Positions 34,775-50,103 of a stretch of DNA of 64,000 nucleotides are shown one piece after another. How positions within the stretch are numbered: position 1 is the stretch's first letter; each line of letters begins with the position of its first letter. The notes below the pieces were generated by a model that did not search any database, had not been told where the DNA came from, and worked only from the letters and a program-made list of their open reading frames with translations. Source of the DNA: an uncultured Pelagibacteraceae bacterium (GTDB lineage: Bacteria; Pseudomonadota; Alphaproteobacteria; Pelagibacterales; Pelagibacteraceae); assembly GCA_902618565.1 (NCBI GenBank), contig CACNAX010000001.1:62001-126000 (forward strand), written 5' to 3'. The position numbers were made by a program, and so were the translations under genes.

Positions 34775-35476
34775 ATGATTGGAATATTAGGTGGCATGGG
34801 AACTCAAGCGGGCTTAGACTTTTGTGATAAGCTTGCAAAATTAAACAGAGGAAAATTAGATCAAAAATATCCGATGTTTGTCCTCTATAATAAATCAAAT
34901 ACACCACGAAGAGCAGAGAATTTAAAGCAATACAAAAATGTTTTAAAAGAATTAATTGCTGGTTGTCGAATGCTGGAAAAAAATAAATGCAAGTTTATTG
35001 TAATGCCTTGTAACACAGCACATTACTGGCATGAAGATATTCAAAAAAAAATATCAGTGCCATTTCTTAGTATGCCAAAAGAGGTATATTTAAACACAAA
35101 AAAAAAATTTAAGAAAAATTCAACTATAGGATTATTATGTACTGAAGCTACTTTAGACACAAAAATCTACCATAAGTATTTTGAAAAAAATTATAATTTG
35201 ATAAGTCCGAGTGAAAGGTTACAAAAGAGTTCAGTAAATACTGCAATTAAATATGTGAAAAAAGGTAAAGTAAAAGATGCTGAAAAAGCTTTAAGACCAG
35301 CAGTTAAATTTTTAATGAAAAAAAAATGTAAAAAAATAATTCTTGGTTGTACAGAACTACCAATAGCTATTTTTTCATACAAATCTTTTAAAAAAGCAAA
35401 AGATTCAAAATTATTTATAGACCCAAATCTTTTGTTAGCTCAAGTTTGCATGAAAAAATACAAAAATTTAAAGTAA
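34775..35476 (+). CDS. aspartate/glutamate racemase family protein
   Basis: 233 aa; MIGILGGMGTQAGLDF, MPCNTAHYWHEDI, ILGCTELPI. Confidence 0.88.
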   Translation: MIGILGGMGTQAGLDFCDKLAKLNRGKLDQKYPMFVLYNKSNTPRRAENLKQYKNVLKELIAGCRMLEKNKCKFIVMPCNTAHYWHEDIQKKISVPFLSMPKEVYLNTKKKFKKNSTIGLLCTEATLDTKIYHKYFEKNYNLISPSERLQKSSVNTAIKYVKKGKVKDAEKALRPAVKFLMKKKCKKIILGCTELPIAIFSYKSFKKAKDSKLFIDPNLLLAQVCMKKYKNLK

Positions 35477-35478
35477 AT

Positions 35479-36132
35479 TCAATTTTTTTTATTACAAATA
35501 AAATATAATTTTCTTGGAAATGATCCTTCTTCAAAATACTCAATATTTAAGTTTTTAAATCCATTTGTTAAATTCAGTATTTTATCTTTAGAAAAAAAAT
35601 GAATAATAAAACCATCTATTTCGTATAGATCTTCTCCTCTATGAATTCCTTTTTTATAGTCTCCATCATCAGTATTTCTGACTGTGTAAATATTTAATCC
35701 TCCAGGTTTTAAAATTCTATGAATTTCGCTATTAAGTTTGTCCAAATCTTTCTGGGTTAAAGCCATGCAATAAAGCATATGTGAATAACAAGCGTCAACT
35801 GAATTAGTTTCAAATGGCAAGTCTTCTCTTATGTCAAATTTTAATGTTGAAATTGAAGATGTTAAATTTTCTTTTTTTATTTTTTCATTGATAATTTTAA
35901 TTCCATTTTCACTATAGTCTAATGCTGTCACATTTATCGAATTCTTTCCAAAGTAAATGCTATCTCTTCCTAGACCTGCTCCTAGCTCAACAATTTTAGA
36001 ATAATTATTTTCTTTGAAAATATTTAAAGCTTTTTTTGCAGGTAAACTTGGTTCTAAACCAAACATCTCAGGCTTATTTGAGAAATTAGTTTCCCAATGC
36101 TGAGATTGTCGGTTTAAAATATTTTTATCCAA
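35479..36132 (-). CDS. class I SAM-dependent methyltransferase
   Basis: 217 aa; KIVELGAGLGRDSIYFG, IHRILKPGGLNIYTVRNT. Confidence 0.85.
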   Translation of the reverse strand: MDKNILNRQSQHWETNFSNKPEMFGLEPSLPAKKALNIFKENNYSKIVELGAGLGRDSIYFGKNSINVTALDYSENGIKIINEKIKKENLTSSISTLKFDIREDLPFETNSVDACYSHMLYCMALTQKDLDKLNSEIHRILKPGGLNIYTVRNTDDGDYKKGIHRGEDLYEIDGFIIHFFSKDKILNLTNGFKNLNIEYFEEGSFPRKLYFICNKKN

Positions 36133-36133
36133 T

Positions 36134-36793
36134 TTACTTAGAAGGATCTGGAACCTTTCTTAGATAAGGTTTTACAGTTTCCCATCCATCTGGATATATT
36201 TTTTTAGCTTCGTCATCTTTAATCGCTGGCAAAATAACAACATCCTCTCCCTTTTTCCAATTAGCAGGAGTAGCTACTTTATGTTTAGCTGTTAGCTGCA
36301 TAGAGTCTATTGCACGCAAAATCTCTAAAAAGTTTCTTCCAGTTGCCATAGGATATGTAAGATATAATCCAATTCTCTTATCAGGTCTGATTACAAAAAT
36401 AGTTCTTACAGTTTCATTATCAACTGCAGTTCTACCCATTGAGGTTGTTCCAGCATCTGCTTCCAACATATTAAACAATTTTGCTACTTTTAAATCTTCA
36501 TCAGCAATAATTGGATAATTTGGTTTTGTACCAGATACATCTTTAATATCATCTAACCATTTTTTATGATCCTCTATTCCATCAACACTTAAACCAATCA
36601 CTTTTACATTTCTTTTATCAAATTCATCTTTCATTAATCCTAAAGCACCAAGTTCTGTAGTACAAACTGGTGTAAAATCTTTAGGGTGTGAAAAAATAAC
36701 TCCCCAACTATCACCTAACCATTCGTGAAAAGAAATATCTCCTTCAGTTGTTTTAGCTTGAAAATCAGGACACATACTATTTATTTTTAACAT
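36134..36793 (-). CDS. 1-Cys-type peroxiredoxin (Prx6/AhpC-TSA)
   Basis: 219 aa; SHPKDFTPVCTTELG, FVIRPDKRIGLYLTYPMATGRNF. Confidence 0.92.
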   Translation of the reverse strand: MLKINSMCPDFQAKTTEGDISFHEWLGDSWGVIFSHPKDFTPVCTTELGALGLMKDEFDKRNVKVIGLSVDGIEDHKKWLDDIKDVSGTKPNYPIIADEDLKVAKLFNMLEADAGTTSMGRTAVDNETVRTIFVIRPDKRIGLYLTYPMATGRNFLEILRAIDSMQLTAKHKVATPANWKKGEDVVILPAIKDDEAKKIYPDGWETVKPYLRKVPDPSK

Positions 36794-36867
36794 TGTCTCC
36801 TCCTTATAAAAAAAATATTATATGAAAGATTGTTTTACTAAGCAAACTTTTATAAAGTTAAGTATTT

Positions 36868-37563
36868 ATGATATTTGAACAACTTTTCGATCAAAAATCT
36901 TCTACATACACTTATATAATTGCAAGTGGTGAAGGTAGAGAAGCATTAATAATTGATCCAGTCATTGAACATTCTGATGAGTATTCAACTATATTAAATA
37001 ATTTAGATCTTAAACTTGTAAAAGTAATTGATACTCACATTCATGCTGATCACATCTCAGCATTAAATGAATTAAATAAAAGAACAAACTGTATAAGAGT
37101 TATGGGAGAAAAATCTAAATCAGAAGTGATAGATCTAAGAATTAAAGATGGTGAAAAAATTAAAGTTGAAGAAGTTGAACTTCAAGCAATTTATACTCCT
37201 GGTCATACTGACTGCTCTTATAGTTTTTTGATGAATGATAGAGTTTTTACTGGAGATACACTTTTAATAAATGGAAGTGGTAGAACAGATTTTCAAAATG
37301 GTAATGCTTACGATGCTTATGATTCTATATTTAATAAATTATTAAAATTACCCGAAAAAACTCTCGTATTTCCAGCTCATGATTATAATGGCAAGAAATT
37401 TTCCACTATTGAAAATGAAAAAAATAATAATCCAAGATTACAAGTAAGCTCAAAGGAAGAATATGCGGACATAATGAATAATCTAAATCTTGCAAATCCA
37501 AAAATGATGGATGTCGCAGTACCTGCTAATGTAAAAGGGCTTACTTTAGACAATATTAATTAA
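36868..37563 (+). CDS. MBL-fold persulfide dioxygenase (ETHE1-like)
   Basis: 231 aa; DTHIHADHISAL, YTPGHTDCSYSFLMNDRVFTGDTLLINGSGRTDFQ, FPAHDYNG. Confidence 0.88.
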   Translation: MIFEQLFDQKSSTYTYIIASGEGREALIIDPVIEHSDEYSTILNNLDLKLVKVIDTHIHADHISALNELNKRTNCIRVMGEKSKSEVIDLRIKDGEKIKVEEVELQAIYTPGHTDCSYSFLMNDRVFTGDTLLINGSGRTDFQNGNAYDAYDSIFNKLLKLPEKTLVFPAHDYNGKKFSTIENEKNNNPRLQVSSKEEYADIMNNLNLANPKMMDVAVPANVKGLTLDNIN

Positions 37564-37600
37564 CTTTAAATTCCAACATTAATAACTATATAGGCAGTCT

Positions 37601-38176
37601 ATGAATGACTATTTGCAATCAATTATTGATAGGGATCCAGCAGCAAGATCTAAGTTAAGTGTAATATTAACGTACCCTGGCGTTAAGGCTGTATTTTTTC
37701 ACAGAATTGCAAATTTTTTTGCTACTGCAAAATTTGATCTTATCGCAAGAATAATTTCTCAATTTTCGAGATTTTTAACTGGTATTGAAATTCATCCAAG
37801 AGCTAAGGTAGGTAAAAATTTATTTATTGATCACGGTATGGGCGTTGTTATAGGTGAAACTTCTGACATTGCAGATAACGTAACAATTTATCATATGGTT
37901 ACTTTAGGTGGAATATCTCCAAGCATAAATTCCAATGATCAAAGAGAAATTAAAAGACACCCTACTCTTCATGATAATGTAGTCGTTGGTTCGGGTGCAC
38001 AGATTTTGGGGCCTGTAGTTGTAGGGAAAAATGCAAGAATTGGAGCTAATGCAGTTGTAACAAAAAATGTTCCTGAAAATGCTGTTATGGTAGGAATACC
38101 TGCTAAGAATGTTGGAACAGCAACTGAAGAATTTAAACCTTATGCTGTTACAAATGGTAATGAGGAAAAAGAATAA
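37601..38176 (+). CDS. cysE: serine O-acetyltransferase
   Basis: 191 aa; left-handed beta-helix; [43 protein letters not shown]. Confidence 0.93.
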
Positions 38177-39177
38177 TGAAAAATTACAAGGATGATTTTA
38201 TCCAATCAATTGGAAATACTCCTTTAATAAAACTAAAAGCTGCATCTGAAATAACTGGCTGTAACATTTATGGTAAAGCCGAATATTTAAATCCAGGAGG
38301 ATCTGTAAAAGACAGAGCAGCACTAGCTTTAATAAGGGATGCTGAACAAAAAAAATTAATATCTAAAGGTGGAATAATTGTAGAAGGAACTGCAGGAAAC
38401 ACTGGTATTGGTTTATGCCTTATTGGAAATTCACTTGGTTATAAAACGATTATTGTAATGAATGATAATCAAACTCAAGAAAAAAAAGATACATTAAGAA
38501 ATATTGGTGCAGATTTAAAATTAGTTCCACCAAAACCTTATAAAGATGAAAATAACTTTGTTAAGGTTGCTGCCAGAATGGCTGAAGAGCTAAAAAGTTC
38601 AAATAATCACGGAGTTGTTTGGGCTAACCAATTTGATAATACCGCAAACTCTAAAGGTCACTACCATACAACGGGTCCTGAGATATGGGAGCAAACGGAG
38701 GGAAAAGTTGATGGATTTGTATGTTCTTCTGGAACTGGTGGAACTATTGGTGGAGTAAGTAGTTTTTTAAAAGAAAAAAATAAAGATATAAAAATTTATC
38801 TATCAGATCCAAAGGGATCATCTCTTTACAATCACATTGAAAACGGCGAGTTAAAAGCTGAAGGTGGATCAATAACTGAGGGCATTGGATCCAGCAGAGT
38901 AACTGCTAATTTTGCAGAAGCAAAAATAGATGGAGCTTTTTCAATTGAAGATAAAGAATCTTTGCCAATACTATATGATTTAATCAAAAATGAAGGTTTA
39001 AGTCTTGGAACAAGTTGTGGAGTAAATATTGCAGGTGCAATTAGATTAGGGAAAAAATTAGGACCAGGTAAAACTATTGTCACTATTCTTTGCGACAAAT
39101 CAGACAGATACAACTCAAAGATGTTTAATAAACCTTTTTTAATTGAAAAAGGTTTGCCTTATCCCGACTGGATATAA
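38176..39177 (+). CDS. cysK: cysteine synthase A
   Basis: 333 aa; NPGGSVKDRAAL, EGTAGNTGIGL; overlaps cysE stop. Confidence 0.92.
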   Translation: MKNYKDDFIQSIGNTPLIKLKAASEITGCNIYGKAEYLNPGGSVKDRAALALIRDAEQKKLISKGGIIVEGTAGNTGIGLCLIGNSLGYKTIIVMNDNQTQEKKDTLRNIGADLKLVPPKPYKDENNFVKVAARMAEELKSSNNHGVVWANQFDNTANSKGHYHTTGPEIWEQTEGKVDGFVCSSGTGGTIGGVSSFLKEKNKDIKIYLSDPKGSSLYNHIENGELKAEGGSITEGIGSSRVTANFAEAKIDGAFSIEDKESLPILYDLIKNEGLSLGTSCGVNIAGAIRLGKKLGPGKTIVTILCDKSDRYNSKMFNKPFLIEKGLPYPDWI

Positions 39178-39259
39178 TCACGCATACCAGCACTGTAATA
39201 AAACCATTACATTTTTAATTTAGAATGAATAATAATTATCTAATAATTAAAGGAATTTT

Positions 39260-39634
39260 ATGAACGCAAAAGAAGTAGTAAAAAAAGGATATGAACTTTT
39301 TGGCAAAGGGGATATGGAGGGATTTATGGAAATGGTACATGATGATATCACTTGGATTTATCCTGGAGATAAGCATCCAATGTCAGGAACTCATAAAGGC
39401 AAAGAAGCATATATGAAAACCATGATGCAAGTTCCAGATCTATGGAGTAATTTTTCAGTAACCCCTGATATGATGATAAGTGAGGGGAATAAAGTGTTTG
39501 TTAAAGCAATTGCTAAGGCAGATGGCATGGATACTATTTTTGGTCATTATTTTGAAGTAAGCGATGATGGTAAACTGACATTGTTTATTGCGTTTGACGA
39601 CACATTGAGCATGTTCAATGCAATGAAAAAGTAA
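39260..39634 (+). CDS. SnoaL/NTF2-like protein
   Basis: 124 aa; KKGYELFGKGDMEGFMEMVHDDITWIYPGDKHPMSGTHKGKEAYMKTMMQVPDLWSNF. Confidence 0.75.
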   Translation: MNAKEVVKKGYELFGKGDMEGFMEMVHDDITWIYPGDKHPMSGTHKGKEAYMKTMMQVPDLWSNFSVTPDMMISEGNKVFVKAIAKADGMDTIFGHYFEVSDDGKLTLFIAFDDTLSMFNAMKK

Positions 39635-39640
39635 TAGTTT

Positions 39641-40108
39641 ATGAAAAAATTATATTTTTTTTTAATTATCATATTTATGTCGAGCACAGCTTTTGCTGAA
39701 CAAGGACAAATTAAACAAAACGGTTTTTTTGCAGGTACATCAAAGGTTTTAGGTGACGATAAAGGTAATTTTACAATTATCTATGATGGTATGTTGGGTT
39801 TAAAAGCATTAGATGGAACGACTTTTGGAGATAAATCTTCAATGAGATGCGTAGGTTCAATAGTTGTTTTTGCAGGAAAAGGATATGAAAGTGGTACTTG
39901 CGTAAATAAATTTGAAGATGGTGGAACAGCAACTTCGCAATATAAAGGTGTTTTTGGAAAAATGTTGAGATGGAAATATGTAAGTGGAACTGGAAAGTAT
40001 GAAAATATATCAGGTGGTGGAACTGCGACTATAAAAGGTATGAATTCTGCACAAGAAGGGATAGTTCATTCTTACAATGAAATTACAGGAAATTATAATT
40101 TAAACTAA
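39641..40108 (+). CDS. exported Gly-rich beta-strand protein of unknown function
   Basis: 155 aa; signal peptide MKKLYFFLIIIFMSSTAFA; two Cys; repeated Gly/Thr beta pattern. Confidence 0.6.
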   Translation: MKKLYFFLIIIFMSSTAFAEQGQIKQNGFFAGTSKVLGDDKGNFTIIYDGMLGLKALDGTTFGDKSSMRCVGSIVVFAGKGYESGTCVNKFEDGGTATSQYKGVFGKMLRWKYVSGTGKYENISGGGTATIKGMNSAQEGIVHSYNEITGNYNLN

Positions 40109-40116
40109 GGAGAAAT

Positions 40117-40446
40117 ATGTCAATTTTAGAAAAACTTAATAAAGCAATTTTGGAAAAGGATGGGGCTGCAGCTGGAGAGTTAGTGCATGAAGAATATAAG
40201 ATGTTTTCTCATCTTAAAGGCGAATATGTGCATATGGGTAAAGAAGGTATGATAGAGGCTGTAAGTAAAGGAATGATGAGTCCTGTTAAACATAGAATTC
40301 TTTTTGAAAATGATGAGATAGGTTTTGATCATTCTTATGTGACTTATCAAGATGGAAACACAGAGGCGTTAATGTGTTGTTGGAAGTTCAAAGATGGAAA
40401 AATCATCGAAGTAGAAACAGGCGCAACAAAATTACCAAAAGAATAA
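40117..40446 (+). CDS. NTF2-like protein, paralog of 42755..43075
   Basis: 109 aa; MSILEKLNKAI...ENDEIGFDHSYVTYQDGNTEALMCCWKFKDGKIIEVETGATKLPK; AAGGAGAAAT RBS. Confidence 0.7.
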   Translation: MSILEKLNKAILEKDGAAAGELVHEEYKMFSHLKGEYVHMGKEGMIEAVSKGMMSPVKHRILFENDEIGFDHSYVTYQDGNTEALMCCWKFKDGKIIEVETGATKLPKE

Positions 40447-40459
40447 ATTAAGGAAGATT

Positions 40460-40816
40460 ATGAGTGGCGCAGAAACAAAAAGTTTTGATAAACCAGATCA
40501 GGAATTTAAACAATTTGACAATGCAGACATGTACCATGTGAATGTTGGTGGACAGAGGTTAGTACAAATTAAACTTCAACCAGGTTGGAAATGGTCAAAA
40601 GATGTTAAACCAAAAATAGACTCCGACGCTGCAAGTTGTCAGGCAAATCATATTGGGGTTATTGTAAAAGGAACTGTGTGTGCAAAACATGACGATGGAA
40701 CAGAAATTACTTATACCGCCGGTAGCGCTTACTCAGTTAAACCAGGTCATGATGCATGGGTAGTTGGTGATGAGCCAGTTATTGCATACGAGTTTGGTGG
40801 AGTGTGGGGCGAATAA
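40460..40816 (+). CDS. cupin-fold protein
   Basis: 118 aa; LQPGWKWSKDVKP ... QANHIGVIVKGTVCAKHDDGTEITYTAGSAYSVKPGHDAWVVGDEPVIAYEF. Confidence 0.75.
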   Translation: MSGAETKSFDKPDQEFKQFDNADMYHVNVGGQRLVQIKLQPGWKWSKDVKPKIDSDAASCQANHIGVIVKGTVCAKHDDGTEITYTAGSAYSVKPGHDAWVVGDEPVIAYEFGGVWGE

Positions 40817-41085
40817 TGGTGAAGATGGTAGGTAGTTTTGAAGTAAAAGATTGGGATCACTGGAAAAAATCTTTTGATGCCCATAAAGAACCTAGGGAAG
40901 CTGCTGGTATAAAAACAGTTTATGTTGGAAATGAAATAGATAATCCAAATAAAGTTCATATAGTCATGGAGACTCCCGCAGCAGATACAATGCAAAAATT
41001 TATGCAAGACCCAGATAATGCTAAAGTAATCGAAGAATCTGGACACAAACAAGAAACAACAATGATGAGCGTTTGCTCAGATTAA
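40816..41085 (+). CDS. small alpha/beta-barrel-like protein
   Basis: 89 aa from refined ATG MVKMVGSFEVKDWDHWKKSFDAHKEPREAAGIKTVYVGNE; ATG overlaps cupin TAA. Confidence 0.65.
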   Translation: MVKMVGSFEVKDWDHWKKSFDAHKEPREAAGIKTVYVGNEIDNPNKVHIVMETPAADTMQKFMQDPDNAKVIEESGHKQETTMMSVCSD

Positions 41086-41103
41086 AACAAACTGAAAGGT
41101 AAT

Positions 41104-41391
41104 ATGAAATACTATATGGTAACTCACACGTTTAAATCTAAAGAAATGAAAAAAAAATTTAATGAAACTTTAGGCGGAATGACTAGAGAACAAATAATTG
41201 AATCATCAACAAGTGATAAGGCCAAATGTCAAATGACATACTACACTCCTGATGAGACAATGACTATGTTCTGTCATTGGATGGCTGAAAGCACCGATGC
41301 TATTAATGAGCAACTTTCTGCTATGAATGATTTTTTTGAACCACATCAATTTACAGAGGTAAAAGAGGAAGTATTCAATTTTAATAGTTAA
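41104..41391 (+). CDS. small alpha/beta-barrel-like protein
   Basis: 95 aa; MKYYMVTHTFKSKEMKKKFNETLGGMTREQI... Confidence 0.6.
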   Translation: MKYYMVTHTFKSKEMKKKFNETLGGMTREQIIESSTSDKAKCQMTYYTPDETMTMFCHWMAESTDAINEQLSAMNDFFEPHQFTEVKEEVFNFNS

Positions 41392-41408
41392 ACAATATAG
41401 GAAAATTT

Positions 41409-41807
41409 ATGAAAAAAATTATAGTCGTATTATTCTTAAGTATCTTTACTTCAAATTGCTTTGCAGATGGTCATGTAAAGAGAATATTATCAACAAGTGA
41501 AACTGGTATGGGAAATGAAATTGTTTATCCATCGGGTAAAGCAAAAATAACAGCTTTTGAATTTACTGTCCCTGTAGGAGCTCCAGTAAAACCTCACACA
41601 CATTCCTTTCCAGTATTAATAATGATCCAACAAGGTGAAATTGAGCTTACGATGGATGGCAAAACCAAAGTTTATAAGGCTGGTGATGCATTTGTTGAAG
41701 ATGTCGGTATTGCACATGAATCTCGAAATATAGGAAATGTGCCTGCTAAAGCAATAGTGGTTGCAATCGGTGTTGAAGGTCAGAAGATTGTAAATCCAGT
41801 TAAATAG
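41409..41807 (+). CDS. exported cupin protein
   Basis: 132 aa; signal peptide; VPVGAPVKPHTHSFPVLIMIQQGEIELTMDGKTKVYKAGDAFVEDVGIAHESRNIG. Confidence 0.85.
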   Translation: MKKIIVVLFLSIFTSNCFADGHVKRILSTSETGMGNEIVYPSGKAKITAFEFTVPVGAPVKPHTHSFPVLIMIQQGEIELTMDGKTKVYKAGDAFVEDVGIAHESRNIGNVPAKAIVVAIGVEGQKIVNPVK

Positions 41808-41820
41808 AGAGGAAACAGAA

Positions 41821-42111
41821 ATGATAATTAAAATAGAAGAAAATATAAAATCACTTTCATCATGGATGAATATGGTAAAAGCGAATGCTGAAAAAATTAA
41901 AGGATTTGGTGCTACGATTATTTTTGCAGGTGTATCAAAAGAAGACCCTACAAAATTTACTGTAATCGTTAAGTATGCAACCATGGAAGGTTTTGAAGCA
42001 TTTAAAAATGACAAAGAACTTCATGCAGCAAGAGCTGAAGCAGGCGTGGATTTAGATTCAGCAAAGGTTACACCGATGCATGAAGATTTTATGGAAAATT
42101 TTAGTGGATAA
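41821..42111 (+). CDS. small alpha/beta-barrel-like protein
   Basis: 96 aa; KFTVIVKYATMEGFEAFKNDKELHAARAEAG; RBS GAGAGGAAACAGAA. Confidence 0.65.
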   Translation: MIIKIEENIKSLSSWMNMVKANAEKIKGFGATIIFAGVSKEDPTKFTVIVKYATMEGFEAFKNDKELHAARAEAGVDLDSAKVTPMHEDFMENFSG

Positions 42112-42138
42112 ACAATCAATATAAAGAAAGGATAAAAT

Positions 42139-42429
42139 ATGGAAACAGAAACACTAGTAGTAGCTCATTTAAAAGAAGGTATGTTAGAAAAATTTATGGG
42201 CTTTATGCAATCAGATGCTGGTATGGCAGAAAGATCGAAAGTTGCAAATGTATCAAAAACAATTGGAACAGTTGCACCTGACAAAAAAACAGTAATGTTT
42301 AAAATTTTTGTGACCGATAAAGCTGCCCTTAAAGCTTTTATAGATGGAAGCAATCCAGTATCAGCTCCAGTTATGAAAGAAGTTATGGAAAGTTACAGTG
42401 TCTACGAATTAAATAAAGTAGATATGTAA
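42139..42429 (+). CDS. small alpha/beta-barrel-like protein
   Basis: 96 aa; KKTVMFKIFVTDKAALKAFIDGSNPVSAPVM; RBS AAAGAAAGGATAAAAT. Confidence 0.65.
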   Translation: METETLVVAHLKEGMLEKFMGFMQSDAGMAERSKVANVSKTIGTVAPDKKTVMFKIFVTDKAALKAFIDGSNPVSAPVMKEVMESYSVYELNKVDM

Positions 42430-42452
42430 TAATTTTTGTAATAAGGTTTGTA

Positions 42453-42743
42453 ATGCCTTCAGGATATATCATATTAAATATTAATGTGTTAAATCCTGAA
42501 AATTACAAAGAGTATTTGGAAAAAGCTCCTCCAACTGCTCGAATGTTTGGTGGCGAATACATTATAAGAGGTGGCGAAAATGAAGTCATTGAAGGTGAGT
42601 GGAAATATCCAAGAACTGTTGTAATTAAATTCCCATCTTATGAAAAAGTTTTTGAGTGGTACAATTCCGAAATATATAAACCTATCAGACAGATTAGATT
42701 AGATAATACTGTATCAAATACATTAATAATTAAAGGAGCATAA
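42453..42743 (+). CDS. DUF1330-like small protein
   Basis: 96 aa; GYIILNINVLNPENYKEYLEKAPPTARMFGGEYIIRGGE...VVIKFPSYEKVFEWYNSEIYKPIRQIR. Confidence 0.8.
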   Translation: MPSGYIILNINVLNPENYKEYLEKAPPTARMFGGEYIIRGGENEVIEGEWKYPRTVVIKFPSYEKVFEWYNSEIYKPIRQIRLDNTVSNTLIIKGA

Positions 42744-42754
42744 AGGAGAAAAAA

Positions 42755-43075
42755 ATGTCAATATTAGAAAAATATAGTGCTGCAATTAAAAATAAAGATG
42801 AAGCAGCAATGAATGAACTTTTGCATGATGATTTTAAATTCACAATGCATAAATCAGGGAGTGTTTTAACTAAAAGTGATGTTATCAAATGGGCAATGAG
42901 TGGTGACATTAAGCAAGATAAAACTAGAATTGTTTATGAAAATGATGAAGTTGGTGTTCACCATGCGTTTGTAACATTTGATGACGGTAATGTAGAAGCA
43001 GTTATGGCAGTCTACAAATACAAAGATGGCAAAATGATTAGTTTAGAAACTGGCGCAACGCCAATGCCAAAATAA
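42755..43075 (+). CDS. NTF2-like protein, paralog of 40117..40446
   Basis: 106 aa; MSILEKYSAAI...ENDEVGVHHAFVTFDDGNVEAVMAVYKYKDGKMISLETGATPMPK; RBS AAAGGAGAAAAAA. Confidence 0.7.
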   Translation: MSILEKYSAAIKNKDEAAMNELLHDDFKFTMHKSGSVLTKSDVIKWAMSGDIKQDKTRIVYENDEVGVHHAFVTFDDGNVEAVMAVYKYKDGKMISLETGATPMPK

Positions 43076-43672
43076 GTGAACAACATAGATTTTTATTTTT
43101 CTATTGGAAGTACTTATACTTATCTTTCGGTTACTCGAGCACTAGAAGCAGAAAAACAACATCAAATTAAGTTTAACTGGACTCCTTTTAGTGTGAGAGC
43201 AATAATGAAAGAAATGAACAATGTTCCCTTTCCTAAAGAAAAAAAAAATAAAGTAGATTACATGTGGAGAGACATAGAAAGACGAGCAAAAAATTATGGA
43301 TTTTTTGCCAAAACACCTGTTCCTTATCCTTTAACAGAATTTGATTTAGCTAATAAAATTGCAATATTAGGTTTAAAAAATAATTGGGGTGTAGATTACA
43401 TTCAGCTTACGTATAAACGATGGTTTCAAGAAGGAAAAGAGCCTGCTGTTGAACCAAACTTGAGTGAAATCTGCGAAAAACTAAGCTTAGATAAAGAAAA
43501 GATTGTTTCAGAGGCAAGCTCTGAGGAAGTTAATAATATTTATTTATCAAATACAGAAAAGGCTAGAAAAAATAAAATATTTGGAAGTCCGTCATTTATT
43601 GTAAAAAATGAAATATTCTGGGGAGATGATAGAATGGAAGATGCAATCAAATGGTCGAAGGCAAATGAATAA
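43076..43672 (+). CDS. DsbA-fold 2-hydroxychromene-2-carboxylate isomerase family protein (GTG start)
   Basis: 198 aa; DFYFSIGSTYTYLSVTRALE, KIFGSPSFIVKNEIFWGDDRMEDAIKW; GTG directly after the preceding TAA. Confidence 0.85.
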   Translation: MNNIDFYFSIGSTYTYLSVTRALEAEKQHQIKFNWTPFSVRAIMKEMNNVPFPKEKKNKVDYMWRDIERRAKNYGFFAKTPVPYPLTEFDLANKIAILGLKNNWGVDYIQLTYKRWFQEGKEPAVEPNLSEICEKLSLDKEKIVSEASSEEVNNIYLSNTEKARKNKIFGSPSFIVKNEIFWGDDRMEDAIKWSKANE

Positions 43673-44000
43673 TATAACTGCTTATATAATTTTATTAATC
43701 GCAGTAATTCTTGGAACAGCTTCAAATAGTTTTGCTAAAAGTGCTCAAGGTTTTACATTATTAATACCTAGCATAATCACAGCAGTAACAATTGTTGGAT
43801 GCATGTATACTTTGTCTTTAGTTATGAAAAGTATACCAGTTGGAATAACATATGCCTCTTTTGCAGGCTTATGTATAATTGCAACAGCTGCCGTTGGTGT
43901 TATAAAATTTAATCAAGTACCAAATTTTTATACAATAATTGGATTGATTTTAATTATCTCGGGTGTCTTAATAGTTAACTTATTAGGAACAAATAAGTGA
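43665..44000 (+). CDS. small multidrug resistance (SMR) transporter subunit 1
   Basis: 111 aa from refined ATG MNNITAYIILLIAVILGTASNSFAKSAQGFT; four TM segments; overlaps preceding stop. Confidence 0.85.
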   Translation: MNNITAYIILLIAVILGTASNSFAKSAQGFTLLIPSIITAVTIVGCMYTLSLVMKSIPVGITYASFAGLCIIATAAVGVIKFNQVPNFYTIIGLILIISGVLIVNLLGTNK

Positions 44001-44332
44001 AACCGTTATCTGGTTACATTTATTTAGTATTAGCTATATCAACAGGAATAGCTGCAAATAGTTTTGCTAAAATTTCAGATGGATTTTCAAAATTAACCCC
44101 AACGATATTATCAATAGCTTTTATGTGTATAACTATGTATGGACTTGCAAAAGCTATGTCTATGATACCAGTAGGTTTTACTTATGCTACTTATAGTGGG
44201 ATAACAGTGGCTGCTATTTTAGTTTTCGGAATGATTAAATATAACCAGATACCAAATATATACGGTTTAATTGGGATTTTTTTAATTATTATTGGTGTTG
44301 TAATGGTTAATTATCTTGGAAGAATTAATTAG
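43997..44332 (+). CDS. SMR transporter subunit 2 (GTG start, overlaps subunit 1)
   Basis: 111 aa; KPLSGYIYLVLAISTGIAANSFAKISDGFSKLTPTILSI; GTGA overlap with preceding TGA. Confidence 0.85.
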   Translation: MKPLSGYIYLVLAISTGIAANSFAKISDGFSKLTPTILSIAFMCITMYGLAKAMSMIPVGFTYATYSGITVAAILVFGMIKYNQIPNIYGLIGIFLIIIGVVMVNYLGRIN

Positions 44333-45228
44333 CTCTTATTAAGTAATAAAATTAGTACACCTACTACAAATATAATTATCCCTAAAATTTCTGTAATTTT
44401 GACTTTTTCTTTAAACATATACTTTGAAGACACATAACTAAATAATAATTCTATTTGGCCGATAGCTCTAACAAATGAAGACTGTATTAACGTAAAAGCA
44501 TAAAACCAAGATAATGTTGCAAGAAATCCAGCTAACCCTGCTGTCAAACATTCATACTTGTTCTCATATAATTTTTTAAACTGCGACTTTTCAAATATAA
44601 TTAAATAAATAGTAACTAATGTTGTTTGTATAACTAGACCAAAAAATAGTGTTGCTATAGCTTTTTCAAAGTTATTACTAAAATTTTCCAATGTTAATGC
44701 TGCTGCTCTAAAATATACAACACTTAAACCTAAGAATAGTCCTGCGGATAAACCAATTAAAGTTGTTTTTGAAAATAAGTTTTTTAGAAATAAACTTAAA
44801 TCTTTAATCGATAATATAATTACTCCAATTGTAGATACAATAATTCCTGTTATTCCAAATTTATTTAATTTATCCCCTATTATTAAATATTCAAAAATTG
44901 CGACTTGAATAACTTCAGTCTTGCTCAATGAAGTTCCAACTACAAAATTAGCAAATCTAAATAAATAGAGTAAAACAAATGTAAAAATTATTTGGAAAAT
45001 TGAACCTAATAATACGTTAAATATAAATTTTTTTTGACTTAGAATTTCAGGAATTACATTTAAATCTTGGAAATACAAAAAAAATAAAATAGTCCCGAAT
45101 GGTAACGCAAAAGCAAATCTTACATAAGTTGATGCAATAGTAGATACTTTTTGATTAAGTTTTTTCTGTAAAGTTGATCTAAGATTTTGAAAAAAAGCCC
45201 CAGAAATAGCTACAATTATCCAATTCAT
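44329..45228 (-). CDS. EamA/DMT family transporter
   Basis: 299 aa, about 10 TM, two EamA-like halves. Confidence 0.8.
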   Translation of the reverse strand: MNWIIVAISGAFFQNLRSTLQKKLNQKVSTIASTYVRFAFALPFGTILFFLYFQDLNVIPEILSQKKFIFNVLLGSIFQIIFTFVLLYLFRFANFVVGTSLSKTEVIQVAIFEYLIIGDKLNKFGITGIIVSTIGVIILSIKDLSLFLKNLFSKTTLIGLSAGLFLGLSVVYFRAAALTLENFSNNFEKAIATLFFGLVIQTTLVTIYLIIFEKSQFKKLYENKYECLTAGLAGFLATLSWFYAFTLIQSSFVRAIGQIELLFSYVSSKYMFKEKVKITEILGIIIFVVGVLILLLNKS

Positions 45229-45303
45229 TGATGATTATTAATATTGTATTTAATTTTAAAGTCGACTTAAATAGTCTCATTTAACAAAAAAGAGGGAAAT
45301 AAC

Positions 45304-46293
45304 ATGAAAATCTTTAAAAGAATAATATTTTCTCTAATTTTCGTTTCTTTTGCCAGTGCAAGTTTGGCGGAAACAAAAATGAGAATTACACTTCAATTAC
45401 CATTAAAGGCTCACTTAGGTCAGAACCTTTTGGTATTTAAAAAAGAATTAGAATCAAGATCAGACATTAAAGTAGAGATTTACGACTCCGCACAACTTTA
45501 CAAAGATAAAGAGGTTCCGCAAGCTGTAGGTTCAGGAGCGATCGAAGCTGGTGTTGCATCTATAACAAGATTTGCAGGAACTAATCCTGAAGTTGATGTT
45601 TTCTATCTTCCATTCTTATTTGACTCAGAACAAAAAGTAAGAAAAGCAACTCAAGCTGGATCTGAGATAAGAGCTATCCTTGATCCTGCAATAGCAAAGA
45701 CTGGAGCAGTTCCACTTTATTATCAAGCTTATGGATCAGCAATAATGTTATCTAATGGTGGTCCGATGAAAACTCCGGGTGACTTTAAAGATAAAAAAAT
45801 TAGAGTATTTGGAAAAACACTTGGAGCTTTTGTGAGTTCTTTAGGTGGTAAACCAGCATTAATATCTGGATCTGAGCAATATTTAGCTTACCAAAGAAAT
45901 ACAGTTGATGCAGGTATGACTGGTGTATCTGGTGTAAAATCTAGAAAATTATATCAAGTAATGGATACTTTAACAGTTACAAATCATGGCGATATCGAAT
46001 TCGTTGTTGTTGCTAATGATAAATGGCTAAGCTCATTAACTCAAAAACAAAGAGACGCTATAGCTGAAGCATCAAAAGTAGCTGAAAAAGCTGTTAGAGA
46101 TGACATGGCTAACATCGAGGCTGGCGCTTACAAAGAAGCAAAAGCAAATGGAATGAACATTGTAAACCTAAGTAGTTCTGAAGTTTCTGCTCTTAAAAAA
46201 GCATCGTCATCTGTTATTGATGATTACATTTCTAGAACAGGTGGAGCTGGTGGAGTTGGTGATCAACTTGTAAAAGCTGCAAACAAACTTTAA
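45304..46293 (+). CDS. dctP: TRAP transporter substrate-binding protein (DctP family)
   Basis: 329 aa; signal peptide; KKIRVFGKTLGAFVSSLGGKP, GDIEFVVVANDKWLSSLTQKQRDAIAEAS. Confidence 0.9.
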   Translation: MKIFKRIIFSLIFVSFASASLAETKMRITLQLPLKAHLGQNLLVFKKELESRSDIKVEIYDSAQLYKDKEVPQAVGSGAIEAGVASITRFAGTNPEVDVFYLPFLFDSEQKVRKATQAGSEIRAILDPAIAKTGAVPLYYQAYGSAIMLSNGGPMKTPGDFKDKKIRVFGKTLGAFVSSLGGKPALISGSEQYLAYQRNTVDAGMTGVSGVKSRKLYQVMDTLTVTNHGDIEFVVVANDKWLSSLTQKQRDAIAEASKVAEKAVRDDMANIEAGAYKEAKANGMNIVNLSSSEVSALKKASSSVIDDYISRTGGAGGVGDQLVKAANKL

Positions 46294-46304
46294 ATCGTAT
46301 AAAT

Positions 46305-46330
46305 ACCCCGCACTTAAGTGCGGGGTTTTC
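46305..46330 (+). terminator. intra-operon hairpin between dctP and dctQ
   Basis: ACCCCGCACTTAAGTGCGGGGT is a 22-nt perfect palindrome followed by TTTC, ending 6 nt before the dctQ ATG. Confidence 0.85.
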
Positions 46331-46332
46331 AA

Positions 46333-46809
46333 ATGAATACCTACGACAAAATTGTAAAATATTCTGGCTATTTAGCTTCAGCATTATTTATTATGATAGG
46401 CTTCATAGTTTCTTATGAAGTTATCATGAGATACATATTTAATTCACCTACTATTTGGGTAAACGAAATTTCTCGATTTTTACAAATTTGGGCTACTTAT
46501 TTAGCTTTAACTTATACTTTTCATAAAAATGATTTTATCAGAATAACCGTTATATATGACAAAGTAGGAGATAAAGGAAAAAAGATATTAGATTTAATAA
46601 GTGCAATATTCATTTTAATTTTTAGTGGATTTGTACTTTATTATGGATGGTTAATTGCTTACGACTCTCTTAAAGTTGGAAGAACAAGCTCTACAATTTT
46701 AGATGTTCCATCCTTTCTTACAGAATTTGCGATACCATTATGTTTTGCATTTTTGGTATTAAGAGTGCTTTTCGAAGTACCTAAATACATCAAAGATATA
46801 ATTAAATGA
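46333..46809 (+). CDS. dctQ: TRAP transporter small permease (DctQ)
   Basis: Start refined to MNTYDKIVKYSGYLAS; four TM; YEVIMRYIFNSPTIWVNEISRFLQIWATYLAL. Confidence 0.9.
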   Translation: MNTYDKIVKYSGYLASALFIMIGFIVSYEVIMRYIFNSPTIWVNEISRFLQIWATYLALTYTFHKNDFIRITVIYDKVGDKGKKILDLISAIFILIFSGFVLYYGWLIAYDSLKVGRTSSTILDVPSFLTEFAIPLCFAFLVLRVLFEVPKYIKDIIK

Positions 46810-48077
46810 CAGTAGCAATAATCTTATTTTTGTTATTTTTTGTGCTTTTTTTAGGAGTGCCAATAGCATTTGGTTTAGGTTCTATAGGATTGGGTTTAAT
46901 GTTATTTGGAGATATTTCTCCTTTAATGATCCCACAAACTTTTTACAGTGTGGCAGATAACTTTATTTTATTGGCTGTTCCGATGTTTTTGATGATGTCT
47001 AATATATTATTAAAAGCAGGTGTTGGAGAAGATCTTTTTAATTTTGCTCAAAGCTGGGTTGGAAATTTTCCAGGCGGTTTAGCAATAGCAACTATAGTTT
47101 CTTGCAGTATTTTTGCTGCTATATCTGGATCATCAGTGGCTACTGCAGCAACAATCTCAACTGTAGCATTTCCTGCAATGATTAATAGAGGTTATCACAG
47201 AAACTTTACTTTAGGTATTTTGGCAGCGGGAGGAACTTTAGGGATTTTAATTCCTCCATCAATTCCAATGATTGTTTATGCATTTGTTGTTGAAGAGTCT
47301 GTACTAAGTATGTTCCTTGCAGGAATTGGGCCAGGAATAGTTTTAGCATTATTTTTTATTATCTTTTCAGTTTTTTACGTGAAATTTTTTAATAAAGAAG
47401 TTCAAAATGTATCCAGTACTTTAGAAGAAAAAATTAAATACACAAAAAGAGGTTTGCCAATATTATTAATGGCCTTCATCATGTTAGGTGGAATTTATGC
47501 TGGAATTTATACACCAACAGAAGCAGGTGGTATTGGTTTTTTAATATCATTTATCTATGTTGTGGCTAAAAAAAGATTAGATTTTAAAGGTTTTATCGAA
47601 GCTGGTTTGGAGACAATGAAAACTACAGTTACTATATTTATAATTATTGCAGGAGCTAAAGTTTTTGGTAAAGCAATTTCTCTTTATAGAATTCCTCAAG
47701 ATTTATCATCTTTCATAGTTACAAATATTAATGAGACTGGTTTATTTATACTTGTTGTTTGTATTACTTTGTTAATCTTAGGATTTATAATGGAAACCCT
47801 GTCATTAATTTTAATCATGATGCCTATATTTTCGATTTCAATTGCTGCAATGAATATTGATTTAATTTGGTTTGGAATAATTTTTACGTTAATGATTGAG
47901 TGCGCATTAATTACACCTCCGGTTGGACTAAATATTTATGTTCTCCAAGCAATTGGTAAAGCAAAAATGTCAGAAATAGCTAAAGGTGTGATACCTTTTG
48001 TCATTATAATGTTATTTACAGTATTTGTTATTTACTTATTCCCTGACCTAGCATTATATATACCTTTTAAATTATAA
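46806..48077 (+). CDS. dctM: TRAP transporter large permease (DctM)
   Basis: 423 aa; LGILIPPSIPMIVYAFV, GIYTPTEAGGIG, ALITPPVGLNIYVLQ. Confidence 0.95.
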   Translation: MTVAIILFLLFFVLFLGVPIAFGLGSIGLGLMLFGDISPLMIPQTFYSVADNFILLAVPMFLMMSNILLKAGVGEDLFNFAQSWVGNFPGGLAIATIVSCSIFAAISGSSVATAATISTVAFPAMINRGYHRNFTLGILAAGGTLGILIPPSIPMIVYAFVVEESVLSMFLAGIGPGIVLALFFIIFSVFYVKFFNKEVQNVSSTLEEKIKYTKRGLPILLMAFIMLGGIYAGIYTPTEAGGIGFLISFIYVVAKKRLDFKGFIEAGLETMKTTVTIFIIIAGAKVFGKAISLYRIPQDLSSFIVTNINETGLFILVVCITLLILGFIMETLSLILIMMPIFSISIAAMNIDLIWFGIIFTLMIECALITPPVGLNIYVLQAIGKAKMSEIAKGVIPFVIIMLFTVFVIYLFPDLALYIPFKL

Positions 48078-48079
48078 AT

Positions 48080-48955
48080 ATGTTTTCAAAAATAAAATCA
48101 AAAGATAAAGCAGAACAATTAAGACAACTATTAAATGGACCAGAAATAATTGTAATGCCTGGATGCTTTGATGCATTATCAGCAAAATTAATTGAAAGAG
48201 AAGGTTTGAAAGTTGGATTTATGTCTGGCTTCAGTGTTTCATCTACAAAGCTTGGTATGCCGGACACAGGTTTAATTTCTTTTTCTGAAATGGCAGAACA
48301 AGTAAGAAATATATGTAATGCTACATCAATTCCAATAATATTTGATGGGGATACTGGATATGGAAATTCAGTAAACGTATTTAGAACTGTAAGAGGATAT
48401 GCGGATGCAGGAGCAGCTGGTGTGATGATTGAAGACCAAAAGTGGCCAAAAAAATGTGGTCACACAAAAGGTAAAGATGTTGTCGATCTTGATGAGGCAA
48501 ACTCAAGAATTAAAGCTGCGGTGGATGCAAGAGAATATGGAAATAAAGATATCTTAATAATGGCAAGAACTGATGCCATAGCAACTAGAGGATTAGATGA
48601 TGCAATTAAAAGAATGCAATCGTTTTCAAAACTTGGCGTTGATATTTTATTTATTGAAGCTGTTAAAAATAAAGAAGATATGAAAAGAATTATCAAAGAA
48701 GTTCCAGGTCATCATATGTTAAATTTGATCGAAGATGGTGAAACCCCATTATTAGAAATTAATGAAATAGAGGAAATTGGTTATAAAATTGCTGTAATGC
48801 CTCTAACCCTAATGAGTGCATCAGTAAAAACGATGCAAGAATGTTTGAATAATATGAAAAATAAAGTTTATAATAAAAATGTTTCTAAATTTTCAGACTT
48901 AAGAGATATAGTTGGCTTCAACGAATATTACGATATTGAAGACAAATATAAATAA
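48080..48955 (+). CDS. isocitrate lyase/PEP mutase family protein
   Basis: 291 aa; DGDTGYGN, GVMIEDQKWPKKCGHTKGKDV, IMARTDAIATRGLDDAIKR. Confidence 0.88.
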   Translation: MFSKIKSKDKAEQLRQLLNGPEIIVMPGCFDALSAKLIEREGLKVGFMSGFSVSSTKLGMPDTGLISFSEMAEQVRNICNATSIPIIFDGDTGYGNSVNVFRTVRGYADAGAAGVMIEDQKWPKKCGHTKGKDVVDLDEANSRIKAAVDAREYGNKDILIMARTDAIATRGLDDAIKRMQSFSKLGVDILFIEAVKNKEDMKRIIKEVPGHHMLNLIEDGETPLLEINEIEEIGYKIAVMPLTLMSASVKTMQECLNNMKNKVYNKNVSKFSDLRDIVGFNEYYDIEDKYK

Positions 48956-49176
48956 TGTTTCCAAAAAAATTCTCTAAAATTCTTTTCGTTTTTTTTATGG
49001 GTTTAGGAATGAGTTTGTTAATGACCCTAATTATTACATTTATAAATACAGGTTATGATGAATTTTATTATAAAAGATTTTTCAAAGCTTGGTCTATTAG
49101 TTTGCCAGTTGCATTAGTTGCAACAACTTTTGTTGCACCGTTGGTTAATAAATTAGTGGAAAAAATTACTAAATAG
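48955..49176 (+). CDS. DUF2798-like small membrane protein
   Basis: 73 aa; two TM; FMGLGMSLLMTLIITFINTGYDEFYYKRFFKAWSISLPVALVATTFVAPLV. Confidence 0.7.
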   Translation: MFPKKFSKILFVFFMGLGMSLLMTLIITFINTGYDEFYYKRFFKAWSISLPVALVATTFVAPLVNKLVEKITK

Positions 49177-49188
49177 AGAGGATGTCAT

Positions 49189-50103
49189 ATGAGTGAAAAT
49201 ATAGCTTTTATAGGAGTTGGTAATATGGGAAACCCAATGGCCTGTAATTTAAAGAACGCAGGGAAAAAGGTTAAGGTTTTTGATGTTTCTAAAGAAATGA
49301 TTGATAAAGCAGTTGAAAATAATCTTGATGTTGAGAAGGATTTTGGAAAACTAATCAATAGTGAAACGTCTGTAGTAATCACTATGTTACCCGAGGGAAA
49401 ACATTCAAAAGAAGTTTATTTAAAAGAAAATGGTGTTCTAGATAAAGTTTCTAAAAATTGTCTACTAATAGATTGTTCAACAATTGATATAAATACCTCT
49501 AAAGAAATAGGAAAGAAAGCAAATGAAAAAGGTATTAAGATGATTGATGCACCAGTAAGTGGTGGTGTGATGGGTGCACAAAAAGCAACTTTAAATATTA
49601 TGGTTGGTGGATCAAATGATGCATTTAATCAAGCTTTACCTATTTTAAAATTAATGGGTAAAAATATTTATCATGCTGGAGAGATAGGAAGCGGAAACGG
49701 TGCAAAGATTTGTAACAACATGTCTCTTGGAATAACAATGATTGCTGCTTCAGAGTCATTAATGTTAGCAAGAAGATTGAATATAGATATAAAGAAAGTT
49801 CATGAAATTATGAAAAATGCTTCCGGAAATAGTTGGCCTATTTCAGTTTATCCACCTTTACCTGGATTAATTGAAGGAACTCCATCTAACAATAAATATA
49901 AGCCAGGCTTTTCTGCAGGTATGATGAACAAAGATTTAAAACTTGCAAATGAATGTGCTAAAAATGCAAATGCATCTACTCCATTAGGAGAGATGGCATT
50001 AGAAATATATTCAAAATTTTGTGAGGATGGAAACAGTTCGAAAGATTTTTCTGCTATATCAAAGGTAATTGGTGGAGATGCTTGGGATTATCCAATAGAA
50101 TAA
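49189..50103 (+). CDS. 3-hydroxyisobutyrate dehydrogenase family NAD(P)-dependent oxidoreductase
   Basis: 304 aa; GVGNMGNPMACNLKNAGKKVKVFD, DAPVSGGVMGAQKATLNIMVGG, GSGNGAKICNNM. Confidence 0.92.
   Translation: MSENIAFIGVGNMGNPMACNLKNAGKKVKVFDVSKEMIDKAVENNLDVEKDFGKLINSETSVVITMLPEGKHSKEVYLKENGVLDKVSKNCLLIDCSTIDINTSKEIGKKANEKGIKMIDAPVSGGVMGAQKATLNIMVGGSNDAFNQALPILKLMGKNIYHAGEIGSGNGAKICNNMSLGITMIAASESLMLARRLNIDIKKVHEIMKNASGNSWPISVYPPLPGLIEGTPSNNKYKPGFSAGMMNKDLKLANECAKNANASTPLGEMALEIYSKFCEDGNSSKDFSAISKVIGGDAWDYPIE

Follow-up and report, generated by a model that had tools for sequence, protein, structure and literature searches.

SAR11 are the most abundant ocean bacteria and their genomes are extremely streamlined. 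The question addressed here is whether eleven consecutive very small genes found in one such genome form a single functional unit and, if so, what that unit does. The genes lie in a stretch of 64,000 nucleotides (the window, whose positions are used throughout) from an uncultured Pelagibacteraceae bacterium (GenBank accession number CACNAX010000001.1, positions 62,001 to 126,000), and are referred to as the array. We hold with good confidence that the array is one functional unit. The explanation that we favour, tentatively and with somewhat less than even confidence, is that it encodes small isomerase/cyclase-type proteins in an operon that is both regulated and exchangeable, and that these proteins would act on reactive small molecules.

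As originally predicted from the sequence, positions 39260–43075 contain eleven + strand genes encoding proteins of 89–155 amino acids (aa), and 96.5% of the segment is coding. The tight packing also predicted was found, though neighbouring genes are -1 to 27 bp apart and not 6–32 bp, and a purine-rich Shine-Dalgarno-like stretch precedes most of the genes, in line with the ribosome-binding sequences noted earlier. Elsewhere in the window, no more than two genes of 160 aa or less follow one another. As genes of this size make up 28% of those outside the array in comparable SAR11 stretches, a run of eleven is beyond chance (naive p^11 ~1e-6). The close spacing on one strand, together with a conserved element that precedes the whole row (see below), is what would be expected of a single operon. 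The array genes and the three genes that follow are:

39260..39634, + strand: g1, SnoaL/NTF2-fold protein, 124 aa (Pfam SnoaL_2, 1.3e-11; 20 distinct homologues, minimum identity 59%)
39641..40108, + strand: g2, exported allene-oxide-cyclase/dirigent-type barrel, 155 aa (AlphaFold and Foldseek; Cys70 and Cys87 invariant)
40117..40446, + strand: g3, NTF2-fold protein, 109 aa (weak DUF4440, 3.9e-4, and SnoaL_2 matches; paralogue of g11, ~47% identity)
40460..40816, + strand: g4, cupin-type protein, 118 aa (weak Cupin_2 match, 0.0056; PGHD conserved near the C terminus in the alignment)
40816..41085, + strand: g5, DUF3764 alpha+beta-barrel-type protein, 89 aa (Pfam DUF3764, 6e-12; overlaps the g4 stop by 1 bp)
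41104..41391, + strand: g6, SCO4226-like alpha+beta-barrel-type protein, 95 aa (Pfam 3.1e-4, below cut-off; 15 distinct homologues)
41409..41807, + strand: g7, exported cupin, 132 aa (Pfam Cupin_2, 2.8e-14; His63, His65 and His103 invariant)
41821..42111, + strand: g8, DUF3764-like alpha+beta-barrel-type protein, 96 aa (Pfam DUF3764, 4.8e-5, just under cut-off)
42139..42429, + strand: g9, alpha+beta-barrel protein of no named family, 96 aa (AlphaFold pLDDT 95; Foldseek)
42453..42743, + strand: g10, DUF1330 alpha+beta-barrel-type protein, 96 aa (Pfam 5e-29; PDB 2fiu, 2.6e-13)
42755..43075, + strand: g11, NTF2-fold (DUF4440/SnoaL_2) protein, 106 aa (Pfam DUF4440, 1.9e-7; mostly the last small gene)
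43076..43672, + strand: DsbA-fold relative of HCCA isomerase (GST-kappa-type) (Pfam DSBA, 6.7e-26; PDB 2imd, 1e-13; no CXXC)
43665..44000, + strand: SMR transporter 1, 111 aa (Pfam Multi_Drug_Res, 2.7e-15)
43997..44332, + strand: SMR transporter 2, 111 aa (Pfam Multi_Drug_Res, 1.1e-18)

The last three entries bear out the HCCA-isomerase-like protein and transporter pair that the original prediction placed downstream. In the protein encoded at 43076, an invariant SIGST stretch occupies the position of the DsbA CXXC, and its sequence is related to those of solved HCCA isomerases. The residues D15, H24, H32, K40, R58, E62, H70 and D77 are invariant in g11. Outside the array, the same genome has another DUF1330 gene (G000 C1:28626-28871; L061:8621-8911), which is 57% identical to g10.

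Close relatives of g4 were found in named Pelagibacteraceae single-cell genomes, which places the window in SAR11, and 80 named SAR11 loci were obtained via g4. Because this first set had been picked mostly via g4 and counted some genomes twice, a second set was anchored on cysK with array content disregarded, and contained 46 slots uninterrupted by a contig end. Gene calls were mechanical, the families are single-linkage clusters or profiles built for the analysis, and several genomes are incomplete. Across SAR11 the same layout recurs, namely cysE, cysK, the array, then the HCCA-isomerase relative and/or SMR transporters. At least three genes from a pool of ~16 families were present in 35 of the 46 cysK-anchored slots, in 32 compositions, and 242 of the 251 array genes in this set encode 160 aa or less. 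Gene order is also kept. When each of the 40 distinct compositions in the first set was counted once, pairwise family order agreed at 0.916, compared with 0.617 after shuffling (maximum 0.667 in 1000 shuffles). Integron cassettes were rejected as a model for this arrangement, as the -1 to 27 bp between genes are too short for attC sites and order is conserved at 0.92, though no integrase profile search was made.

A conserved element is found directly after cysK, with the consensus CATAcCAG-N3-TGTAAY-AAAACN-RTTACA followed by a TATAAT-like hexamer. In the window it is represented by:

39183..39211, + strand: cis element, CATACCAG-CAC-TGTAAT-AAAACC-ATTACA, with the palindrome at 39194-39211
39221-39226, + strand: -10-like hexamer TAGAAT, 3' of the palindrome

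All 27 unique sites matching the strict pattern in 1.94 Mb of fetched DNA lie between cysK and an array, regardless of which gene comes first. Across 42 distinct versions of the element, complementarity almost never fails at the outer five pairs of the palindrome, where one double change was seen; the sixth pair is complementary in half. One of these versions is instructive: in locus L252 it stands ~64 bp upstream of a relocated array, a set of seven pool genes, the HCCA-isomerase relative among them, without cysK. The element is therefore a feature of the array rather than of cysK. In an earlier study, neither cysK nor cysE was induced by sulfur limitation (PMC5069961). The palindrome has other matches in the same genome (C1:54485 and C27:5123), but these fall within genes and are without the CATACCAG flank, and this pattern thus revealed no wider regulon. 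The position of the palindrome relative to the -10-like hexamer suggests that it is an operator, though it may instead be an RNA hairpin; no Rfam family matched anywhere in 36000–48200. In one SAR11 group (L046, L054, L088-L101 and others), a gene for a 138-aa membrane protein (mem138) is read in the direction opposite to cysK, and the interval that separates the divergent mem138 from the array contains a conserved stretch of another kind, around GCATAnCTGTCGCGCG-n-TATAAACAC.

The content of the slot differs even among close relatives. Genes g3–g6 are absent from G039, G013 and G011 despite flanks that are 96–98% identical, and in G013 the first part of g2 is fused to a stretch resembling the end of g5, which is probably a deletion scar. 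Nucleotide diversity among six genomes with the full array is 0.09–0.5% over g2–g6, compared with 2–8% in the genes and spacer outside g1–g9, and 29 of 2167 sites segregate in g2–g7 compared with 403 of 5417 in the flanks (Fisher 2.6e-31). It is this low diversity relative to the flanks that makes a recent spread of the g2–g7 segment through recombination most likely. Where divergence from distant SAR11 suffices for an estimate, the ratio of non-synonymous to synonymous substitution (dN/dS) of the array genes is ~0.04–0.4, indicating purifying selection.

A fixed site with variable content among close relatives and horizontal exchange, seen here as a trough in diversity, are features of the known SAR11 flexible islands, both the hypervariable regions HVR1–HVR4 (PMC2217521) and the replacement islands (PMC11898729). 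The array slot differs from them in its narrow pool of small enzyme folds, kept order and conserved cis element. Mapping of the flanking genes places it outside HVR1–HVR4 as published for HTCC1062; from the flanking gene names in PMC2864753 we infer that it corresponds to about SAR11_0785-0791. High turnover between genomes with nearly identical flanks, including the probable scar in G013/G011, would also be expected if unrelated small genes simply gathered, with no shared pathway, at a recombination-permissive spot beside cysK. We consider this distinctly unlikely, given that the pool is restricted to ~16 families, order is conserved, the element travels with the array, the array has relocated as a block, and similar groups recur in other families without cysK. 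Turnover, diverse compositions and a recent sweep could also mark a phage-defence or conflict island. We regard this as extremely improbable, as the genes are under purifying selection, 0 of 10 proteins matched PADLOC models of known anti-phage systems, and viral contigs gave no g9 homologues and a single weak g4 relative, on which ground viral carriage was rejected too. Defence, viral origin and integron models are thus not supported.

Related groups of genes were also found outside SAR11. Among 385 alphaproteobacterial genomes, g9 was confined to SAR11 and a second streamlined family, where it forms the operons g9-cupin-c45-NTF2, g9-cupin-NTF2 and g9-NTF2 (g9-CUP4-c45-NTF2 in f32). Clusters of GYD, DUF3764, DUF1330, ABM, SCO4226-like, NTF2 and cupin genes, smaller than the SAR11 array and without cysK, occur in f110 and other families. 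HxlR-type regulators adjoin two such clusters and a GFA gene adjoins one (f110). In L226 (4276-8773), an HxlR-type regulator gene is located between two divergent groups of small genes, with DUF3303, GYD, ABM and DUF3764 on one side and a 94-aa gene, DUF1330 and GFA on the other. The co-occurrence of these families in one slot across SAR11, their joint relocation in one genome and their clustering in other alphaproteobacterial families establish the array as a real unit and not the chance juxtaposition that the original prediction had named as its alternative.

The folds encoded by the array are three NTF2/SnoaL (g1, g3 and g11), two cupins (g4 and g7), five dimeric alpha+beta-barrel-type proteins and one exported barrel (g2). 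The NTF2, cupin and alpha/beta-barrel assignments made originally were retained, while the protein described as exported and Gly-rich proved to be the cyclase/dirigent-type barrel g2. Several Pfam assignments, among them g6 and g8, are below the curated cut-off. As g2 and g9 had no Pfam match, AlphaFold models of these two were compared using Foldseek. The g9 model (pLDDT 95) has a ferredoxin-like fold (Foldseek probability 1.00) of the alpha+beta-barrel type, the dimeric state being assigned by family only, and matched 2bbe (1.5e-4), NIPSNAP proteins, LsrG, the polyketide cyclase OAC, ActVA-Orf6 and SnoaB. It also resembles YiiL, for which there is a rhamnose-binding structure. The g2 model (pLDDT 87) is an eight-stranded barrel with the dirigent/allene oxide cyclase fold, and its best PDB matches were dirigent proteins, the Diels-Alderases PloI4 and PyrI4, and allene oxide cyclases (6ooc, 1.1e-5; 7x80; 4h6a). 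Sequence searches of the PDB gave nothing useful for the g2, g4, g6, g9, g11, GYD and c45 families.

Enzymes with the folds found in the array often work without an organic cofactor. The array proteins share their folds, as judged by Pfam and Foldseek, with several cofactor-independent cyclase and monooxygenase families (SnoaL/KSI, ABM/ActVA-Orf6, OAC, allene oxide cyclase/dirigent and PyrI4/PloI4), a likeness at the level of the fold. The array differs from these in having no biosynthetic synthase and in having eleven such proteins in one operon. The cyclase members among the folds and the resemblance of g2 to Diels-Alderases and allene oxide cyclase would suit a set of cyclases and isomerases that finishes a polyketide- or oxylipin-like compound made elsewhere. 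This seems very unlikely, as there is no synthase near the array and the gene set varies between genomes; streamlined SAR11 genomes are not known for secondary-metabolite pathways.

What the array does chemically is, as distinct from its status as a unit, something we infer from folds that often need no organic cofactor, the likeness of the 43076 protein to a glutathione-dependent HCCA isomerase, the terminal SMR transporters and the glutathione reductase gene in one slot. The folds, the relative of HCCA isomerase and the two SMR proteins would all fit processing or detoxification of a small molecule coupled to its efflux, as first suggested. Known electrophile-response systems include genes controlled by HxlR-type regulators alongside GFA or glyoxalase genes. 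The clusters described here resemble such systems in that small barrel proteins accompany HxlR-type regulators and GFA in f110, and in the glutathione-linked neighbours in SAR11, but the SAR11 array has no HxlR gene. The HxlR-type and GFA genes next to clusters in other families point towards carbonyl compounds of the reactive kind, and we count with these hints the GFA gene that adjoins a second SAR11 home of the g4-type cupin.

In the favoured explanation, single-domain proteins that handle small molecules would form one operon behind their own conserved promoter region, with membership tuned through recombination within SAR11. The cytoplasmic NTF2 and alpha+beta-barrel proteins would isomerise, cyclise or hydrolyse reactive metabolites without organic cofactors, candidate substrates being electrophilic carbonyls, enones, quinones or lactones. 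The GST-kappa-type protein may perform a glutathione-dependent isomerisation, the exported cupin (g7) and cyclase-type barrel (g2) may act in the periplasm, and the SMR pair may export the product or a toxicant, with each cell carrying the subset that fits the compounds it encounters. A broader proposal is that SAR11 and its relatives have a dedicated, regulated 'mix-and-match' pathway consisting solely of tiny enzymes that use no organic cofactor, and that cells exchange the gene set to match the reactive metabolites of surface seawater; this is possible though rather doubtful.

The claim that there is no large catalytic gene holds for the array in the window but not for a few relatives, whose slots contain genes for a flavin mononucleotide (FMN)-dependent alpha-hydroxyacid dehydrogenase (three), an enolase-superfamily sugar-acid dehydratase-like protein between GYD and NTF2 (two) or glutathione reductase (one). 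The dehydratase-like and dehydrogenase genes are the reason for treating a catabolic toolbox as the main rival, in which auxiliary isomerases, mutarotases and lactonases would feed dissolved organics such as sugar acids, lactones and aromatics to central metabolism and the slot would be swapped according to diet. The likeness of g9 to YiiL and the TRAP transporter downstream in the window are consistent with it. We nevertheless judge it fairly unlikely, as only a few slots hold large catabolic enzymes, proximity of TRAP genes to the slot is limited to genomes closely related to that of the window, and the terminal genes are for SMR-type transporters.

Several observations also weigh against the regulated operon for reactive small molecules. 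The HCCA isomerase or the SMR genes are absent from some slots, some cysK slots have no array at all, and many slots are from related genomes and thus not independent. The excess of genomes with both cupin4 (CUP4) and DUF3764 (5 of 385 compared with 0.3 expected; hypergeometric 1.3e-6) speaks for the unit, but the calculation takes no account of relatedness. The hints about chemistry stem from few relatives, and Foldseek TM-scores are mostly 0.5–0.7, so that a fold can be read from these matches but not a reaction.

The genes surrounding the slot were also recorded. Upstream, 34775–38176 has a sulfur/thiol flavour, with genes for an amino-acid (cysteate-type) racemase, a methyltransferase, a 1-Cys peroxiredoxin, a GloB/persulfide-dioxygenase-like hydrolase and cysE, joined in some relatives by an SQR-like gene. 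Downstream (45304–50103), a TRAP transporter is followed by methylisocitrate-lyase-like and 3-hydroxyisobutyrate dehydrogenase genes, an arrangement found only in close relatives of the window genome. The second home of the g4-type cupin, in L047, L049, L108 and ~30 other SAR11 loci, is near recA, where the gene is divergent from LexA/UmuD-like and DinP-like genes and adjoins the GFA gene; some genomes have both copies.

No paper describing the array locus was found in the open literature, most subscription-journal papers being outside the search, and the published SAR11 papers on structured RNAs and hypervariable regions do not name cysK. Newly found here are the fixed slot with its ordered pool, the palindromic element linked to the array, the recent recombinational spread and the recurrence in other Alphaproteobacteria. 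The array offers a compact, testable gene set, a candidate regulatory site and, for each gene, natural variants that carry it and others that lack it. As the genome is streamlined and yet holds a selected, apparently recently spread block of eleven genes with a conserved, putatively regulatory site, the array suggests that the ocean's most abundant bacteria have a trait that has so far gone unrecognised.

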